DNA of 64,000 bases from Blastocatellia bacterium (lineage in GTDB: Bacteria; Acidobacteriota; Blastocatellia; HR10; J050): the NCBI GenBank assembly GCA_025054955.1, contig JANWZE010000112.1, positions 66,310 to 130,309 of the forward strand, read 5' to 3'. The translations under genes were made by a program, and so were the position numbers. The notes under the pieces were generated by a model, which saw only the letters and a list, made by a program, of their open reading frames with translations, was not told the origin of the DNA and ran no database searches. Shown here one piece after another: positions 1 through 59,100 of the stretch. The stretch's first letter is position 1; each line of letters begins with the position of its first letter.

Positions 1-1191
1 AATGGCAAGCTGACACTCAATCTGAAGGCCGGCGCGGCCTATAGCAATCGTGATCGGAGCTTCAACTCCCGACGCATCCGATTGATTGCCACTCGGCTGC
101 GCGGCATCAATTTGTTCCTGCCGCCTGAGCAATTGCTCGCGCCGCAGAACATCCGTCCGGATGGCTTCCTGCCGTTTGAGGAGACACGTCCAACAGACGC
201 CTATCAGGGGATTCACGACATCACGGCCGGTTACGCCATGGCCGACCTGACCATGAAGAAATGGCGCTTCATCGGCGGCCTACGCGCCGAAAGGTCTAAC
301 CAGCGCGTAGACACGTTTGATCCATTCACGCCGAATCGGCGACCCGTCACGGCTGGCCAAAAAGAGACTGATCTGATGCCCAGTCTCGCCGTTGTTTATG
401 GACTTACCGGCCAGATGAACCTGCGAGTCAGCTTCAGCCAGACTGTCGCGCGACCTCAGTTTCGCGAGCTCAGTCCATTTGAATTCACAGACGTGACGGG
501 CGGCCCGTCGCAACGCGGCAATCCTGAACTCCTGCGTTCGACGATTCGCAATTTTGATAGCCGGTGGGAATGGTTCATCAGCCCCCGCGAAGTGCTGGCT
601 GTGAGCTTCTTCTATAAGCGCCTCATCAACCCGATTGAGCAGATCATTCAACCATCCAATGAAACGACGATCCTCTCCTATCGCAACGTGAACGCCGCCA
701 ACAATTGGGGACTTGAATTCGAGGTGAGGAAAAATATGGGCTTCTTGTCATCCCGATTGGAGAACCTCAATGTCACGTCTAACTACACGTTTGTTGACTC
801 CCAGGTTGATATTGGAAAGCAAGGCCCATTGAATGTGCTGACCACGCTGCGACGCCCGCTGGTCGGTCAATCCCGGCATGCGTTTAACTCGTCGGTCGGA
901 TACGAAATACCGCGCTGGGGCATGGAGACCCGTGCTCTATTCAACTACATCGGCAGCCGCATCACGGATGTCGGCGGATTCGGATTGCCCGACATCATCG
1001 AAGATGGCATCCCCAGTCTGGATTTTTATGTGTCCAAACGATTTTTAGGCGAGGCTAAGAATCTCGAATTGAAATTCTCGGCGGAAAATCTCATCAACCG
1101 CGAGATTCGATTCAATCAGGGGAACCGGCCGTATTACTACTTCCGTCGTGGTCGCACGTTCAGCTTGGGGCTCTCATACACGCTCTTTTGA
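1..1191 (+). CDS. TonB-dependent outer-membrane receptor, C-terminal part (5' end outside window)
   Basis: The frame is open from base 1 to a TGA at 1189-1191, giving the last 396 residues of a longer protein. The sequence is typical of a 22-strand receptor barrel: alternating polar/aromatic strands, the segment TVARPQFRELSPFEF that recurs in one class of large TonB receptors, the FSAENLINREIRF segment near the end, and a C-terminal aromatic residue (YTLF) as expected for BAM-dependent insertion. Such receptors import scarce substrates across the outer membrane with TonB/ExbBD energy. The substrate cannot be read from this part. Its position beside a beta-helix protein, PhoX and the pst operon suggests phosphate-containing compounds (inference). 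Plug and signal peptide lie outside the window. Confidence 0.9.
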   Translation, partial: NGKLTLNLKAGAAYSNRDRSFNSRRIRLIATRLRGINLFLPPEQLLAPQNIRPDGFLPFEETRPTDAYQGIHDITAGYAMADLTMKKWRFIGGLRAERSNQRVDTFDPFTPNRRPVTAGQKETDLMPSLAVVYGLTGQMNLRVSFSQTVARPQFRELSPFEFTDVTGGPSQRGNPELLRSTIRNFDSRWEWFISPREVLAVSFFYKRLINPIEQIIQPSNETTILSYRNVNAANNWGLEFEVRKNMGFLSSRLENLNVTSNYTFVDSQVDIGKQGPLNVLTTLRRPLVGQSRHAFNSSVGYEIPRWGMETRALFNYIGSRITDVGGFGLPDIIEDGIPSLDFYVSKRFLGEAKNLELKFSAENLINREIRFNQGNRPYYYFRRGRTFSLGLSYTLF

Positions 1192-3343: not shown

Positions 3344-3472
3344 GTGAGAATGTGGCATAGGCGTTCCCGCCTGTGCTCCGTTTTCATTCTTCATGGCGTG
3401 CAATCGCATAGGGGCGATTCCCGTGAAAATAACATTTTGTGGCGAGCGTAAGCTCATGGGCAATTTTTGAAA
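3344..3472 (+). repeat. Dispersed intergenic repeat, family A, copy 1
   Basis: Contains the segments GTGGCATAGGCGTTCCCGCC, TTTTCATTCTTCATGGCG, GGGGCGATTCCCGTG and TGGCGAGCGTAAGCTCATGG. The same ordered segments occur in reverse orientation near 8080-8285 and in direct orientation at 58850-59100, with related pieces at 32405-32580. Confidence 0.75.
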
Positions 3473-3661: not shown

Positions 3662-3715
3662 TTTACTCATTTTTAACACAGGCGTCACCAGGTTGTAATG
3701 GAGGGCGTATAGAAT
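3662..3715 (+). promoter_or_regulatory. Pho-type promoter of phoX
   Basis: Four pentamers at strict 11-bp intervals: TTTAC (3662), TTAAC (3673), GTCAC (3684) and GTAAT (3695). Ten nucleotides after the last one comes TAGAAT (3710-3715), a good -10. PhoB-class activators bind 11-bp direct repeats that replace the -35 and sit about 10 nt before the -10, so the layout is what is expected. Transcription would start near 3722, about 50 nt before the phoX ATG. Confidence 0.8.
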
Positions 3716-3772: not shown

Positions 3773-5962
3773 ATGCACAAGACAATCTCACATCTGGCAA
3801 TCGGCGTCTTGCTGGCGGTGACACTGGCGGTCATCTTGCCGGCGTCACTGGCGCAGGATCAAACAGACCCGCTGTCGAGCATGGTAGCGGTGACGCTCAA
3901 AGATTCAGCGGGCACAGGCGCCACCAACGTCGCCGATTTCGTGAAAGCGCGTGTCAATCAATTTGCGCGCGGCCATCTTTCACCCACAATCCAGTTTCCA
4001 CTGGCCAACGCAGCGACTGACAGTGTGCGAGCCTTGCAGGGGCTTCACCACAACGTCGTCATCAAATGGCTGGACAATCTAACGTTCAGCAATGCAGCCG
4101 ATGCGCCGCGGTTTGGCGCCAATTGTGATTACCTTGCTTACTTTGGTGATGGTTGGAACGCCACGCCGGGCAGCGCGCCACAGTACAATGGCAGCGGCAG
4201 CGCCGGCTGGGTTTGGGTCAACCACGAATACATCTCTGGCGAGCCGGCGAACACAACGACGGCGCCCACGAATCAACATCTGACGCTTGCCAAATTCCTA
4301 CGAGCGCGCGGGCTGCTGACCAACGACATCACCTCCAACATCTGGTCACAGGCTGATGTGGATACGATCACGCGCGCGCACAAGCGCCAGCTTGGCGGTT
4401 CATGGTTCCGCGTCGTGCAGGACCCATCCACCGGCGAGTGGGTCGTGGATAAGAATTCACGAAACCTGCGCTACGACGCCACCAGCAACACGTTGGCGCG
4501 AGTGGCCGGACAGGGGCTGTTGACCCGGGCCAATGATGACAACGGCAATCCTCTACCAGAAGGTGTGGTGCCCGGCATTACCGGTGATTGCTCCGGCTTG
4601 CAGACGCCCTGGGGCACGATCATCACAGCCGAAGAAAATGTGCAGGATTATTACGGTGACCTGGAAGCATGCTGGACCAGCCAGAACCGCTTCGTGCCCG
4701 GCCAAGGCTTCGATCCGGGCCGAAACATTTCGCCGATTATTACGCCCAGCCCTGCCTCTGAATTCGGCCGGCTCTCCAATCCAAATGAACGGCATAGCCG
4801 CGAGTACTATGGTTACCTCGTGGAAATTGATCCCGGTGTGGCGCCCAACGAGTACGAAGGCAAGACGACGCCCGGTGTCGGTCACAAGAAACTCGGTTTC
4901 TTCGGTCGTGCCCGATGGGAAAACGCGGCAGTCGCAGTTGACGGCCGTTTTCAACTCATTCCCGATAGACCCATCGTGATGTATGCCGGCGACGACCGCC
5001 GCAGCGGCCGCATCTACAAGTGGGTCACGCGCGACAACTACGTCCCCGGCATGAGCAAGGCTGAGATTCGCGCCTTGCTCGAGAACGGCAAACTCTACGT
5101 GGCTCACTTTGCTGGCTTGGACAATACCACCGGTATCACGTTGCTTGGCGGTGGCACACCTACAGAGGAGAATCCGGGCCTGGGCCGTTGGATTGAGCTG
5201 AGCGTCAACAGCACTGACATCGCTCCTAACGCCGCCGCGCTGGGCAATCCGAACAAGACGGTCGGCGAAGCGTTGCGTGATGTGAATTGGAACGGGATCG
5301 GCGGCTTCCCTACCGATGACGATGTGCGTCGTGCCTTGTTCACTGCAAGCAACAAGATCGGCATCATGGAACTGAATCGCCCAGAAGACATCGAGTGGAA
5401 CCCGAAAGACCCCAGTGGCACGCCCCGCCTCTATGTGGCCTTCACCAATCACACAGGTCAGGTCGCCCTCGATCAAAATGGCGTCTTGTTTGATCCAGCC
5501 ACCCATGCCACGAGGGCTCCTCGCCGTACGGACCGCGCCGGCTCAATCTTCATCATCGAAGAGTCCCAACCGAACAATCCGGGCGCGTCGCGAACGTTCC
5601 GCTATTTCGCTGCGTGGCTCGGCACGCGCGGGCAAGGCGCGTTTGATGCGGCCAATCCAGATAACATCATGATTGACAGAGATGGCGGTGTCTGGTTCGG
5701 CACGGATGGTAATTACGGAACCAACGGCACAGCCGACGCGGTGTATTACCTGGATTTGAACCCGTCGCACAAAGCAGGCCTCGGCGGCATTGTCAACCCG
5801 ACGTTCGGCAAAGCCATTCGAGTTGTGGCTGGACCCAGCGATTCAGAAGCCACCGGACCGGCCTTTAGCTCCGACATGCGAACGTTATTCTTTAACGTGC
5901 AACATCCAGGTGAGACCATACCGAGCACCTGGCCGCAGACGCGAAGCAGCGGCAAGCGCTAA
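3773..5962 (+). CDS. phoX: PhoX-family (DUF839) secreted phosphatase
   Basis: A 729-residue exported protein with signal peptide MHKTISHLAIGVLLAVTLAV...SLAQ. It shows the PhoX hallmarks in order: WVNHEYIS, DCSGLQTPWGTIITAEEN (Cys273 at the place of the iron-ligand Cys), HSREYYGYLVEIDPG, the YAGDDRRSGRIYKWV strand, and FFNVQHPGE near the C-terminus. PhoX enzymes hydrolyse phosphomonoesters using Fe/Ca cofactors and supply phosphate when it is scarce. The ATG has a GGAGGGAG site and a Pho-box promoter upstream, consistent with induction by phosphate limitation. The signal lacks an obvious twin-arginine, unlike many PhoX proteins that travel by Tat, so the export route is uncertain. Confidence 0.9.
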   Translation: MHKTISHLAIGVLLAVTLAVILPASLAQDQTDPLSSMVAVTLKDSAGTGATNVADFVKARVNQFARGHLSPTIQFPLANAATDSVRALQGLHHNVVIKWLDNLTFSNAADAPRFGANCDYLAYFGDGWNATPGSAPQYNGSGSAGWVWVNHEYISGEPANTTTAPTNQHLTLAKFLRARGLLTNDITSNIWSQADVDTITRAHKRQLGGSWFRVVQDPSTGEWVVDKNSRNLRYDATSNTLARVAGQGLLTRANDDNGNPLPEGVVPGITGDCSGLQTPWGTIITAEENVQDYYGDLEACWTSQNRFVPGQGFDPGRNISPIITPSPASEFGRLSNPNERHSREYYGYLVEIDPGVAPNEYEGKTTPGVGHKKLGFFGRARWENAAVAVDGRFQLIPDRPIVMYAGDDRRSGRIYKWVTRDNYVPGMSKAEIRALLENGKLYVAHFAGLDNTTGITLLGGGTPTEENPGLGRWIELSVNSTDIAPNAAALGNPNKTVGEALRDVNWNGIGGFPTDDDVRRALFTASNKIGIMELNRPEDIEWNPKDPSGTPRLYVAFTNHTGQVALDQNGVLFDPATHATRAPRRTDRAGSIFIIEESQPNNPGASRTFRYFAAWLGTRGQGAFDAANPDNIMIDRDGGVWFGTDGNYGTNGTADAVYYLDLNPSHKAGLGGIVNPTFGKAIRVVAGPSDSEATGPAFSSDMRTLFFNVQHPGETIPSTWPQTRSSGKR

Positions 5963-6046
5963 CACAATGAAGGCACGGATGAGTGCCAGTGAGCAAAATT
6001 GAAACTGGCCTCATCCGGCTCACCCGTGTGTGAGGTGGAGGGCAAT

Positions 6047-7711
6047 ATGAAAACGCGAATGTGGCTTAAGGCAGCCTTTCTACTGCTATGCGGATGGTTG
6101 CTGATTAGCGATGTCACTGGCCATCGCATTGTTGGGCAGGATAACTATGATCCGCTGGCGCGAGCCATCGCCAGCATCGGTCAGACCGTCAACTTGGAAG
6201 CCGTTGTGCCGCCGCAGTGTTATACGAAGACGGCGGGCGTCGCCAATCCATGCTGGACGTGTCACACCGTACCCATGTTGGTCTCCAACAATTTCCTTGT
6301 GGATTGGGAGCTACAAGAGGAATACGCCTTCAGCGATTTTGCTCTGACCAACCGATGGACAAACCTGTTCGTGGATCGCTCCGAAAAGATCGCGGCCATC
6401 AGCGATCAGGAGGCGCTCCAGTACATCCGCGAGGATAACTATACACCGTTGCAACGCGCACTGAGTGGGCGCTCAGACTATCCTGGCTATGTACCTGATC
6501 TGGATTTCTCGCTCGGCTTCGATGAGGAAGGGTTTGCCAAAGACGGTAGCGGCTGGCGCGCGATTCGCTACAAACCGTTTCTCGGCACGTTTTGGCCGAC
6601 CAACGGCAGCACCGATGACGTCATGATCCGGTTACCGCGCGCCTTTCAAACCGACGCTGACGGCAAGCTGTCCCGCGAGATCTACAAGATCAATCTGGCG
6701 ATCCTCGAAGCAGCCATTGCCGGCAATCCACTGATGTCCGACAAAGAACTCATTCACCCGGTTGAACCGATCAACGAAACGCTGGTGGGGATTGACCTGA
6801 ACAAAAACAACAGACTGGATATTGCCACTGAGATTGTCGGACTGCCAGCGCGTTATGTCGGCGGCGCCAGCAACGTGGTGGTGACACGCGCACTGTATCC
6901 TCAAGGCACTGAGTTCCTGCATACGGTTCGCTACATTGACCCTGATAATCCCACGCTGCTTTCCACGCGGATGAAGGAGGTCCGCTACTCTCGCAAAGTC
7001 CTCTTTCTGGATACGTGGGCGCTGCTGCGGGCCTACGAGAAAGAGTTCAATGATAAACAAGAAAACGTGCTGCCCATCTTCGCTGGATCACCGCTGGTAG
7101 GGCTGCGCAACAGCTTTGGCTGGCAATTACAAGGCTTCATCGAAGATGAACGCGGTCGCCTGCGATTGCAAACGGAAGAGGAGCATCGCTTCTGCATGGG
7201 CTGTCACAGTGCTGTTGGGGTGACCGTAGATCAGACGTTCACGCTGGCTCGCAAAGTGCCGGGGGCGGCAGGCTGGCGGCATCAAGACCTGCGTGGCATT
7301 CCCGATGTACCACAAGCCGGTCATGCCGAGCCAGAGATTCTGACCTATTTCAAACGGGTCACCGGCGGAGATGAGTTTCGTAGCAATCAGGAGGTTCTGG
7401 ACCGCTTCTTCCCCAGCGGCCAGCTCGATGAAGTCAGCGTGCGGCGCGCCGCGCCCGGTGGCGATCAGGACATCACCTTCCTGATTGCACCCTCGCGCTC
7501 ACGAGCTTTGCAATTGAATAAAGCCTACATGGCGCTGGCGCGCGAACAACGCTTCGAGTTGGGCCGAGATACATTGCTTGCGCCCGCAGTCAATGTCCAT
7601 ACAGAGATCGAAAATGGATCAACCGAGCTGAACGCAACCGGCAAGGTTTTCCAAGATGGTCGTCTGTGGCTGGATTGGTCTCAGGCAATGTTCAAGCAAA
7701 AACGAAATTGA
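6047..7711 (+). CDS. Diheme cytochrome c-like secreted protein, unknown function
   Basis: A 554-residue protein; ATG 6047 is chosen over the earlier in-frame start at 5999 because a GAGGG site precedes it and it opens a signal peptide (MKTRMWLKAAFLLLCGWLLI). Two CxxCH heme-attachment motifs are visible: CWTCH at 69-73 and CMGCH at 383-387, far apart in a long protein. It should be a periplasmic or surface c-type cytochrome. No known oxidase, peroxidase or MauG signature is recognised. It starts 84 bp after phoX with no visible promoter between, so it is probably in the same Pho-controlled transcript. Why phosphate starvation should induce a cytochrome is not known to me. Confidence 0.75.
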   Translation: MKTRMWLKAAFLLLCGWLLISDVTGHRIVGQDNYDPLARAIASIGQTVNLEAVVPPQCYTKTAGVANPCWTCHTVPMLVSNNFLVDWELQEEYAFSDFALTNRWTNLFVDRSEKIAAISDQEALQYIREDNYTPLQRALSGRSDYPGYVPDLDFSLGFDEEGFAKDGSGWRAIRYKPFLGTFWPTNGSTDDVMIRLPRAFQTDADGKLSREIYKINLAILEAAIAGNPLMSDKELIHPVEPINETLVGIDLNKNNRLDIATEIVGLPARYVGGASNVVVTRALYPQGTEFLHTVRYIDPDNPTLLSTRMKEVRYSRKVLFLDTWALLRAYEKEFNDKQENVLPIFAGSPLVGLRNSFGWQLQGFIEDERGRLRLQTEEEHRFCMGCHSAVGVTVDQTFTLARKVPGAAGWRHQDLRGIPDVPQAGHAEPEILTYFKRVTGGDEFRSNQEVLDRFFPSGQLDEVSVRRAAPGGDQDITFLIAPSRSRALQLNKAYMALAREQRFELGRDTLLAPAVNVHTEIENGSTELNATGKVFQDGRLWLDWSQAMFKQKRN

Positions 7712-7844
7712 TGGATTCAACCCTGGCATGGATACCCGCTTTGTCTGCATTTCCACTGCTCCTACTTTGAGCCCGTCAGCGCCTTCATGGCACATCAGTA
7801 TTGACGGGTCCCGCCTCTAGACTGCTTTTTTCCTGTATCCGCCC

Positions 7845-7878
7845 GAGCCTCCCGGTGACCAAACGCGCCGGGAGGCTC
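7845..7878. terminator. Strong stem-loop between convergent transcripts
   Basis: An 11-bp perfect stem GAGCCTCCCGG / CCGGGAGGCTC with a 12-nt loop, about 135 bp after the cytochrome stop. There is no T-run on either side, so termination is plausible but not shown. Confidence 0.5.
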
Positions 7879-7911
7879 ACCTCCACGATTTGATTCAGGG
7901 CTTGCGCGATG

Positions 7912-7965
7912 TTCACACCGTTTTAACGATCAGTTTACACATCCGTTACAGGCCGCAGGTATAAT
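7912..7965 (+). promoter_or_regulatory. Pho-type promoter with no recognised gene
   Basis: Four pentamers at exact 11-bp spacing: TTCAC (7912), TTAAC (7923), TTTAC (7934), GTTAC (7945). Ten nucleotides later is a perfect TATAAT (7960-7965). This equals the arrangement before pstS and phoX. Predicted start is near 7972 on the plus strand; the next plus-strand gene is pstS at 8825, which has its own promoter. Confidence 0.8.
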
Positions 7966-7971
7966 CCATCA

Positions 7972-8070
7972 CGATTCTGTCTTTGCGATCGAATGGATTT
8001 GTTGGGTGGTCGCGGAGTGCATGCCTCCCCTACGCCTTTTGCTGGCCACCCATCAAATCGTATCCGCAGG
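7972..8070 (+). ncRNA. Candidate Pho-controlled structured RNA
   Basis: Begins about 7 nt after the TATAAT of the Pho-type promoter. Bases 7996-8009 (GATTTGTTGGGTGG) pair with 8046-8059 (CCACCCATCAAATC) in a 14-bp stem with a single mismatch, and the loop contains a second small helix GGAG...CTCC. There is no ribosome site or protein-like frame. The 3' end is unknown; read-through would make it antisense to the regulator at 8290-8667. The call rests on promoter plus fold only. Confidence 0.45.
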
Positions 8071-8079
8071 AACTGTCCA

Positions 8080-8285
8080 TCGGGTTCTTGCCACCAAGGA
8101 TGACTGCCACGAAGGATGAAAAGCAAGCGCAGGTTCAAGAGCAGCTCTTTGAATCTGTTGATCAGTTAATTTGTGCCTATTCTCATTTCAGGAGAATTGC
8201 CCCTATGCTTGGTGGCAGGCCACGAAGGATGAGAACGGCGCACAGGCGGGAATGCCTGCGCCACATTTGTGCCACATTCTCAGGG
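8080..8285 (-). repeat. Dispersed intergenic repeat, family A, copy 2 (reverse)
   Basis: On the minus strand it reads TGAGAATGTGGCACAAATG, then GGCATTCCCGCCTGTGCGCC, TCTCATCCTTCGTGGC and CATAGGGGCAATTCTCC, matching the order in the 3344-3472 copy. A shorter related piece (CTTTTCATCCTTCGTGGCAG) lies at about 8107-8126. Confidence 0.7.
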
Positions 8286-8289
8286 GACG

Positions 8290-8667
8290 CTACACCATCT
8301 GGCGTCGTCGCGCCGGCTCTGTCTGCGAAACCGTTAACGGGATGAACCGGTAGCCCACGCCGATTAACGTCTGAATGTAATTGTGTCCCGATTGCAAGCC
8401 CAGCTTGCGTCGCAATCGGCTCACGTGTACATCGAGCGTGCGCGGATCATGCGTCGCGCGTCCTTGCCATAATGTGTTGAGCAGAAACTCGCGTGTCAGG
8501 ACCCGGCCAGCATTAGTCATCAGTAAGCGCAGCAAGAGAAATTCCTGGCGCGTCAACTGAACCGGCACACCGCCACACTGCACGACAAAGCCTTCATAGT
8601 CCACGTACAGGTAGCCATCGAAGTAAAGCGTTTGACCAATTCCTTCAACAATGTTCGGCTTATGCAT
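8290..8667 (-). CDS. Orphan OmpR/PhoB-type winged-helix DNA-binding protein (no receiver domain)
   Basis: A 125-residue protein that is essentially only the DNA-binding domain of a PhoB-class regulator. It shows LTRQEFLLLRLLMTNAGRVL, the recognition-helix segment RTLDVHVSRLRRKLG, and the wing IGVGYRF. The recognition helix is nearly the same as that of the full PhoB encoded at 13319 (RTLDVHIRRLRQKLG), so it should recognise similar 11-bp repeats (inference). No receiver domain or phospho-acceptor Asp is present, so control must be by its level or by a partner. It is divergent from pstS, and the shared intergenic region is filled with Pho-box pentamers. The ATG is about 9 nt from a candidate -10, so the mRNA may be nearly leaderless. 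Confidence 0.85.
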   Translation of the reverse strand: MHKPNIVEGIGQTLYFDGYLYVDYEGFVVQCGGVPVQLTRQEFLLLRLLMTNAGRVLTREFLLNTLWQGRATHDPRTLDVHVSRLRRKLGLQSGHNYIQTLIGVGYRFIPLTVSQTEPARRRQMV

Positions 8668-8676
8668 CGTTATGGT

Positions 8677-8730
8677 TACATATCACAGCTTTGTAACAAG
8701 CGATTAAATATGATGTTACAGAGGTGTAAC
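8677..8730 (-). promoter_or_regulatory. Pho-type promoter of the orphan regulator
   Basis: Read on the minus strand: GTTAC (8730-8726), GTAAC (8719-8715), TTTAA (8708-8704) and GTTAC (8697-8693), all 11 bp apart. Ten nucleotides after the last is TATGTA (8682-8677), a weak -10 followed 9 nt later by the ATG. The first two pentamers form the palindrome GTTAC-n6-GTAAC. Autoregulation or control by PhoB is likely. Confidence 0.65.
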
Positions 8731-8758
8731 TTTTAGCGTCTGGTTGTGAGGATACGGA

Positions 8759-8801
8759 TTGACCAAAAGTTAACTTGGATTTAACATGCCGACCTTATAA
8801 T
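8759..8801 (+). promoter_or_regulatory. Pho-type promoter of pstS
   Basis: TTGAC (8759), TTAAC (8770) and TTAAC (8781) at 11-bp spacing, then exactly 10 nt, then TATAAT (8796-8801). Predicted start near 8808, leaving a short leader with a GAGG before ATG 8825. The pentamers are in the same 11-bp register as the divergent array at 8682-8730. Confidence 0.85.
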
Positions 8802-8824
8802 CACGCGGTGAGGTAAAAATCAGT

Positions 8825-9727
8825 ATGAAGAGAATTCTTCCGTTGATGGTGGCGCTCGTTGTGAGCGTCAGCGGAGCGAGTCTGAGTGGGTGTCCAGCGC
8901 CGCAAAATAATCAATCACAGGGTCCAGCCAAGCCGGTGACGGTCAAGGGCTCTGACACGATGGTGATTCTGGGCCAGCGATTTGCCGAGCGCTTCATGAA
9001 TCAGTATCCGGGCACGACAATCCAGATCACCGGCGGCGGCTCCGGCACCGGCATTGCCGCATTGATCAATGGCAGCACCGACATCGCCCAAAGCTCGCGT
9101 CCAATGAAAGAGACAGAGAAACAACAGGTCAGAGAAAGGCACAACAAAGAGGTCATCGAAACGCCGGTGGCGCTCGATGGACTGGCGGTATACGTGCATC
9201 ACTCGAATCCAGTGAACGAGTTGACGCTGGCTCAAGTCAAGGCGATCTACACTGGCAGCATCACCAACTGGAATGCCGTCGGCGGCAAGAATGCCCCGAT
9301 TGTGCTCTACAGCCGCGAGAATAGTTCCGGCACCTACGAATACTTCAAAGAGCATGTGTTGAACAAAGAGGATTTCGCTGCAACCGTTCAACCACTGCCT
9401 GGCACGGCTGCTGTCGTCAATGCTGTCGGTAAGGACCCCAATGCCATCGGCTATGGCGGCATTGCTTATCTGGAACAGGTCAAACCCCTGCGGCTGAAAA
9501 AGGACGATGCCTCGCCGGCTATACCCCCAACGCAGGAACACGTTCTGGCAAAAACCTATCCGATCAGTCGTGATCTGTATTTCTACACGGTGGGGAAGCC
9601 GAGCAATCCGGTGGCAATTGATTTCATTCGCTGGGTGCTCTCTGAGCAAGGACAAGCCGTCGTCAGAGAAGTAGAGTATTTTTCACTGCCGGAAGAACGG
9701 CGTCGAGCGATTCTGGCGCAGTGGTAA
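8825..9727 (+). CDS. pstS: Phosphate ABC transporter, substrate-binding lipoprotein
   Basis: A 300-residue protein with a lipoprotein signal ending at LSGC (Cys23), followed by an Asn/Gln-rich linker. The core carries PstS features: VTVKGSDTMVILGQRF at the start of the first lobe, GGGSGTGIAALINGSTDIA for phosphate-loop contacts, SRENSSGTYEYF, and IGYGGIAYL. It captures phosphate in the periplasm and hands it to PstCA. It is the first gene of pstSCAB-phoU-phoBR and lies directly behind a Pho-box promoter. The next gene starts 14 bp after its stop, so the cluster is probably one operon. Confidence 0.95.
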   Translation: MKRILPLMVALVVSVSGASLSGCPAPQNNQSQGPAKPVTVKGSDTMVILGQRFAERFMNQYPGTTIQITGGGSGTGIAALINGSTDIAQSSRPMKETEKQQVRERHNKEVIETPVALDGLAVYVHHSNPVNELTLAQVKAIYTGSITNWNAVGGKNAPIVLYSRENSSGTYEYFKEHVLNKEDFAATVQPLPGTAAVVNAVGKDPNAIGYGGIAYLEQVKPLRLKKDDASPAIPPTQEHVLAKTYPISRDLYFYTVGKPSNPVAIDFIRWVLSEQGQAVVREVEYFSLPEERRRAILAQW

Positions 9728-28043: not shown

Positions 28044-28081
28044 GCGACGGTTGCCGTCAGGCGCTGGTTAAGTTTGATGAA

Positions 28082-28120
28082 TTCGGGCGCTGTTGGCGAG
28101 GGTGGCCAACAGCGCCCGAA
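28082..28120 (+). terminator. Perfect 16-bp stem-loop after the first Oar-like receptor
   Basis: TTCGGGCGCTGTTGGC (28082-28097) pairs perfectly with GCCAACAGCGCCCGAA (28105-28120) around a 7-nt loop, 38 bp after the receptor stop. No T-run follows, but the stem is strong enough to shape or protect the transcript end. Confidence 0.65.
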
Positions 28121-28305
28121 CTGGGGCTTGGGAGAAGGCCACTGCCGATTGATGCTGGCGCAAACAATCGGTGGTCATCTTGTCATCCGTGCCTTCAGCG
28201 CGCCGGCGGTGTCTTCTCGGTTCTGACATTACGGCTTTGTTATGTGGTTGCCGACTCGCCTCGCTTGCCGCGAGACGCGGGCGGCTGAGTTTTTACATGT
28301 TTCAG

Positions 28306-32267: not shown

Positions 32268-32294
32268 GAGCTAGCCAACCGATTATCAACCACG

Positions 32295-32328
32295 CAACGC
32301 GAAGAGACGCTCCGGTCTCTTCGCGTTG
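32295..32328 (+). terminator. Stem-loop after the second Oar-like receptor
   Basis: CAACGCGAAGAGAC (32295-32308) pairs perfectly with GTCTCTTCGCGTTG (32315-32328) around a 6-nt loop, 27 bp after the receptor stop. Likely transcript-end structure, without a long T-run. Confidence 0.65.
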
Positions 32329-32404
32329 TGTTGCGTTGACGCAGCTCCTTCAGCAAATCACCTCCCGAAAACAGCCACAGAGGGGGCAGAGGGTTTTCGG
32401 CAGA

Positions 32405-42794: not shown

Positions 42795-42846
42795 AGCCGG
42801 CAAACTTCATGGTAACCGGAATCGGTTCCTCTGAAGTCTGCCGGCT
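42795..42846. terminator. Large nested stem-loop after the DUF6600 gene
   Basis: AGCCGGCA and ACTTCA on one side pair with TGAAGT and TGCCGGCT on the other, with one mismatch between blocks, an internal loop, and an inner AACCG/CGGTT hairpin with loop GAAT. It lies 27 bp beyond the DUF6600 stop and just upstream of the kinase promoter. A terminator or operator is possible; no T-run. Confidence 0.55.
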
Positions 42847-58687: not shown

Positions 58688-58720
58688 CCGCTCGTTAACC
58701 GGTCAGCCGTTAACGAGCGG
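58688..58720. other. Strong inverted repeat with GTTAAC palindromes
   Basis: CCGCTCGTTAAC (58688-58699) and GTTAACGAGCGG (58709-58720) form a perfect 12-bp inverted repeat with a 9-nt spacer, 18 bp upstream of the -35 of the lipoprotein promoter. Could be an operator or a terminator for msrA. Confidence 0.6.
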
Positions 58721-58849: not shown

Positions 58850-59100
58850 TGCTCAGAAAAAGTGGCACAGGCGTTTCTGCCTGTGCGCCATTATCATGAT
58901 CTGTGGCGTGCGGAGCTGATGGGCGATTCCTGACTTTTTCTTGGAGTGTGCCGGCAGAGCGAAGCGGCGACGGCGCTTTGTCACTTGAAAATGAACACTT
59001 TCATGCTTCGTGGTGAACGTAAGTTCATGGACGACTCCCTTAAAAATAACCATTTTCATCCTTCGTGGCGAGCTGTTGCATATAGGCGATTCTCTTGTAG
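58850..59100 (+). repeat. Dispersed intergenic repeat, family A, copies 3 and 4
   Basis: Copy 3 (about 58855-58935) reads GTGGCACAGGCGTTTCTGCC, GCCATTATCATGATCTGTGG and GGGCGATTCCTGAC. Copy 4 (about 58995-59100) has two modules, TTTCATGCTTCGTGGTGAAC with GTAAGTTCATGGACGACTCC, and TTTTCATCCTTCGTGGCGAG with AGGCGATTCTCTTG. Confidence 0.75.

Follow-up and report, generated by a model that had tools for sequence, protein, structure and literature searches.

An orphan four-box Pho promoter convergent with a receiver-less PhoB-like regulator gene in a Blastocatellia Pho cluster

In the Pho cluster of a Blastocatellia bacterium, a complete Pho promoter with no credible gene downstream faces the 3' end of a PhoB-like regulator gene that lacks the receiver domain and whose orientation is inverted relative to that in related genomes. 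These elements are established from the sequence, and the likely product of the promoter is predicted to be a Pi-induced non-coding transcript that converges on the regulator gene and perhaps reaches pstS. The window, i.e., the whole 64,000-nucleotide stretch of DNA that was analysed (G000:C112:66310-130309), belongs to a 4.69-Mb genome, and the cluster follows the order TonB-dependent receptor tail, phoX, 570-aa protein, orphan promoter, regulator (minus strand) and pstS-pstC-pstA-pstB-phoU-phoB-phoR (Table 1). The 570-aa protein, which contains CxxCH/CxxC-like motifs, had no match in Pfam or NCBIfam and no homologue in the order's other comparison genomes; these comprised two of the same family and seven more of the same order, the nearest belonging to another genus. 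The hairpin that follows the phoX operon is likely its terminator.

Table 1. Positions in the window of the orphan promoter, its target region and the neighbouring genes.
Feature	Position	Strand	Remarks
TonB-dependent receptor	82-1191		tail only
Pho promoter of phoX	3662-3715
phoX	3773-5962
570-aa protein	5999-7711		directly 3' of phoX; no family match
Strong hairpin without U tract	7845-7878	.	3' of phoX operon
Four Pho boxes TTCACACCGTT TTAACGATCAG TTTACACATCC GTTACAGGCCG	7912-7955	+	11-bp period
-10 element TATAAT	7960-7965	+	15 nt from the start of the last box; start predicted near 7972
Unique non-coding DNA	7966-8105	+	just 3' of promoter
Stem-loop, arms 7996-8009 and 8046-8059	7996-8059	+	13 of 14 pairs, one U-U mismatch, further inner pairs
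Dispersed intergenic repeats	8106-8275	.
Receiver-less PhoB-like winged-helix regulator, 125 aa	8290-8667	-	convergent with orphan promoter
Pho-box array upstream of regulator gene	8677-8730	-	score 26.8, weak -10
Pho promoter of pstSCAB-phoU-phoB-phoR	8759-8801	+
pstS	8825-9727	+	853 nt downstream of orphan start, same direction

The four Pho boxes of the orphan promoter start at 7912, 7923, 7934 and 7945, and these 11-bp direct repeats occupy the place of a -35 element. The 15-nt register between box and -10 element is common to the orphan promoter, the pst and phoX promoters and two more Pho promoters that lie upstream of the window. With a box matrix trained on those four other promoters of the genome and the orphan site held out, the orphan promoter including its -10 element scored 37.6, as compared to a maximum of 17.4 over 40 shuffled 64-kb sequences, which bears out the four-box Pho promoter with perfect TATAAT reported in the preliminary description. 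In a further 20 stretches of this genome (about 395 kb, all outside the window), the best site, preceding a tonB-like gene, reached 22.5 and the next 13.7. A consensus scan with the four-box score also placed the orphan site first in the window at 25, with the phoX and pst sites at 21, and the highest of 40 shuffles was 19. Based on the matrix score relative to the shuffles and on the rarity of such sites in the 395 kb, we judge the orphan promoter to be real and not a chance arrangement.

Of the Pho sites that score at least 22 in the window or in the fetched loci, the other 20 all have a frame of at least 90 aa opening within about 120 nt, and most of these frames are recognisable Pho-regulon genes. 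Further Pho promoters upstream of the window (L175:8934-9600; L239:13469-13602) drive genes for a small J-domain-like protein and a TonB-dependent receptor and a tonB-like gene. In E. coli, many PhoB sites are transcriptionally inert, but those sites are intragenic (PMC10294691), whereas the orphan site has a matched -10 element.

The promoter had been described as aimed at DNA without a credible gene, and this was confirmed for the plus strand at 7966-8290, where the codon log-odds were those of non-coding DNA and no Pfam match was found. The sole long plus-strand frame after the promoter has a TTG start, no ribosome-binding site and a codon score of -0.16, which falls in the non-coding range, while the first percentile of coding sequences is 0.01 and the regulator gene reaches 0.22. 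A search for coding remnants in 7821-8446 gave no Pfam match at E values up to 10. A small protein as the product of the promoter is very improbable: frames of 36 aa (starting at 7993), 32 aa (at 8021) and 120 aa (at 7983) are open at a suitable distance, but they have neither a good ribosome-binding site nor a Pfam match, the 120-aa and 36-aa frames have codon scores near the non-coding median, and the 120-aa frame crosses a dispersed repeat.

Further downstream, the segment 8184-8268 has approximately 50 partial copies in the genome, and the segment 8106-8173 has one 80% copy, while its first 17 bases recur many times. The former belongs to a dispersed repeat that contains an internal palindrome (GCACAGGCGGGAACGCCTGTGC-like) and is present in the window at 8184-8268, 3349-3428 and 58858-58911 and at about 50 places in the genome. 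As a dedicated terminator the 8184-8268 repeat was rejected, because its copies occur in gaps of all three kinds, tandem, divergent and convergent. The codon and repeat evidence shows the DNA downstream of the promoter to be non-coding, and nothing more.

A 14-bp stem-loop had been proposed shortly after the predicted start; the stem is present, beginning 24 nt past that start, with 13 pairs rather than 14. Its local fold was -31.4 kcal/mol with a z score of -3.4, and the larger folds of a 179-nt segment (z -1.4) and a 329-nt segment (z -1.3) were not significant. Inverted repeats of the same quality number five in the window versus 0-2 in shuffles, and 470 kb of the genome contain 31 comparable palindromes (about one per 15 kb), of which 25 lie outside predicted genes and 10 no more than 100 nt from a gene 3' end. 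Since such palindromes are common in the genome and mostly intergenic, the stem supports a functional RNA only weakly and is not specific to regulatory RNA. It may be an ordinary palindrome, possibly terminator-like, in which case the transcript could end after about 90 nt. As a dispersed element the stem was rejected, with no other copy in the genome. Strong hairpins without a U tract follow several genes in this genome, and long near-perfect palindromes without U tracts were also seen at 28080-28122, 32292-32331, 42795-42846 and 58688-58720, several just past stop codons; possibly, hairpins of this kind are a terminator style of the genome. No U-tract consensus terminator was found between 7600 and 9000.

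A discrete, phosphate-induced structured small RNA of about 90-300 nt acting in trans on target mRNAs is improbable. The stem with its z score and close position to the start, the non-coding DNA and the existence of phosphate-linked small RNAs in other organisms are consistent with it, but palindromes of this kind are common, a U-tract terminator is missing, Rfam gave no meaningful match for the candidate RNA at gathering or relaxed thresholds, DNA relatives of the promoter and stem were found neither in 39 near genomes nor then across the class in its 161 other genomes, and pairing with the translation starts of the window genes was not above shuffles (best z -1.2). Compared with a stranded promoter and a selected antisense RNA, the trans-acting small RNA is the least supported. 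From the preliminary interpretation, the gene-less Pho promoter aimed at the regulator 3' end is well supported, while the discrete structured small RNA is a mere candidate, given a common palindrome and no terminator.

The regulator at 8290-8667 is coding by its log-odds, matches Trans_reg_C (E 1.5e-25) and lacks a receiver domain, in agreement with its earlier assignment as receiver-less and PhoB-like. Its residues 21-108 align with the effector domain of PhoB (DNA-binding domain, PDB 1GXP), and it differs from PhoB in lacking the receiver domain. By its orientation, the orphan promoter (7912-7965, plus strand) would have the strand opposite to the regulator gene (minus strand) transcribed, so that the antisense direction claimed for it was correct. 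The Pho-box array at 8677-8730 implies that the regulator itself would be Pho-controlled, and the regulator start codon almost coincides with the predicted transcript start; the regulator mRNA may be leaderless and Pho-controlled.

A profile built from four receiver-less members and used across the class set about 26-29 short proteins, most of them 103-171 aa long, apart from the full-length PhoB-like regulators of the class. Members of this family include L157:16311-16685, L158:14354-14767, L159:12311-12778 and L201-L223, with the motif Y-D-D-G-Y-L-R-V-E. The usual order in the Pho clusters of the class is TonB-dependent receptor, regulator, then Pho promoter and pstS. In 16 relatives, counted where pstS was visible in the fetched flanks, the regulator lies immediately 5' of pstS in the same direction, many of them with a Pho promoter between the two genes, and the window is the sole, inverted exception. 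At the nearest pst loci (G001, G004), other genes lie upstream of pstS and no such regulator is present there; the gene in G001 looks porin-like.

A stranded promoter is plausible in view of the flipped regulator, and a function is plausible in view of the intact boxes. It is possible, though short of probable, that the promoter is a relic stranded by gene loss or inversion and transcribed without a selected function. The regulator flipped relative to 16 relatives, the repeat-filled downstream DNA and the absence of the arrangement from relatives point in this direction, but the four boxes and the perfect -10 element are intact, the score is on par with gene-linked sites, and no gene remnant was found. 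A promoter stranded by inversion is as plausible as a selected antisense RNA.

The explanation preferred here is an effect in cis, which as a whole, with its origin by a regulator flip, we consider about as probable as its opposite. Since the orphan promoter is of PhoB type and has no gene, low phosphate should give a plus-strand transcript from about 7972: PhoB would activate the promoter, and a non-coding transcript would begin near that position, converge on the regulator 3' end and, if unterminated, cross the regulator gene into pstS. We infer this transcription and the extent of the RNA, and likewise that any effect would most likely be in cis, the regulator being damped by convergent or antisense transcription while some read-through reaches the pst operon, and that the regulator gene was probably flipped relative to the order in relatives, leaving a Pho promoter without its gene. 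The promoter score, the non-coding, repeat-containing downstream DNA, the linkage of the other Pho sites to genes, the opposite regulator orientation found only here against 16 relatives and the missing U-tract terminator at 7600-9000 all favour this explanation. Against it, the stem or the repeat hairpin could stop the RNA short of the regulator, neither inverted repeats flanking the regulator and able to mediate an inversion nor a remnant of an ancestral gene marks a flip, and in the relatives it is a TonB-dependent receptor gene, and not a promoter dedicated to the regulator, that precedes the regulator.

An excludon is a long leader antisense to a neighbouring gene, and in such a form the orphan promoter could be a distal second promoter of pst, with an 853-nt leader antisense to the regulator acting as a double-negative switch between regulator and pst. 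The shared direction with pstS, the lack of an intervening U-tract terminator and the Pho boxes of the regulator itself would fit, but pst has a strong promoter of its own, strong hairpins stand in the path and the arrangement is not conserved, and we regard this reading as unlikely. More doubtful still is the full sequence of events in which, after inversion of the regulator, a non-coding transcript fired by PhoB silences the Pho-controlled receiver-less regulator and reads into pst as a double-negative RNA switch. The transcript could end early at the stem, act as an antisense RNA on the regulator or read through into pstS, and the promoter could equally be a stranded one; roughly, we assign a third of the weight to the relic, half to a cis effect including read-through (these readings overlap) and an eighth to a trans-acting small RNA.

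If transcribed and functional, the orphan promoter would mean that phosphate control in this little-studied group has an additional RNA layer, and it would be a clear case in which the inversion of a gene gave rise to antisense control. As a relic it would still illustrate the rearrangement of Pho clusters, and it leads to a conserved family of receiver-less PhoB-like regulators beside pst.

As in an excludon, the transcript predicted to start at 7972 would first cover the regulator gene in antisense and next run into pstS; unlike in an excludon, the read-through here is a prediction and pst has its own promoter. In E. coli, EsrL is a proposed phosphate-linked small RNA that is repressed by PhoB according to a review, and PhoB binding there was not seen in K-12; sRNA132 of Haloferax is also phosphate-linked (PMC6560208). 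The candidate has the link to phosphate in common with both, and no sequence or Rfam relation. In Nostoc sp. PCC 7120, NtcA- and HetR-dependent antisense RNAs arise from nutrient-regulator promoters (PMC10287535), and the orphan promoter resembles them in combining a nutrient-regulator-dependent promoter with a non-coding antisense transcript, which is predicted here; the transcripts in Nostoc were mapped and as_gltA was tested, whereas the present case consists of the promoter only, and for phosphate.
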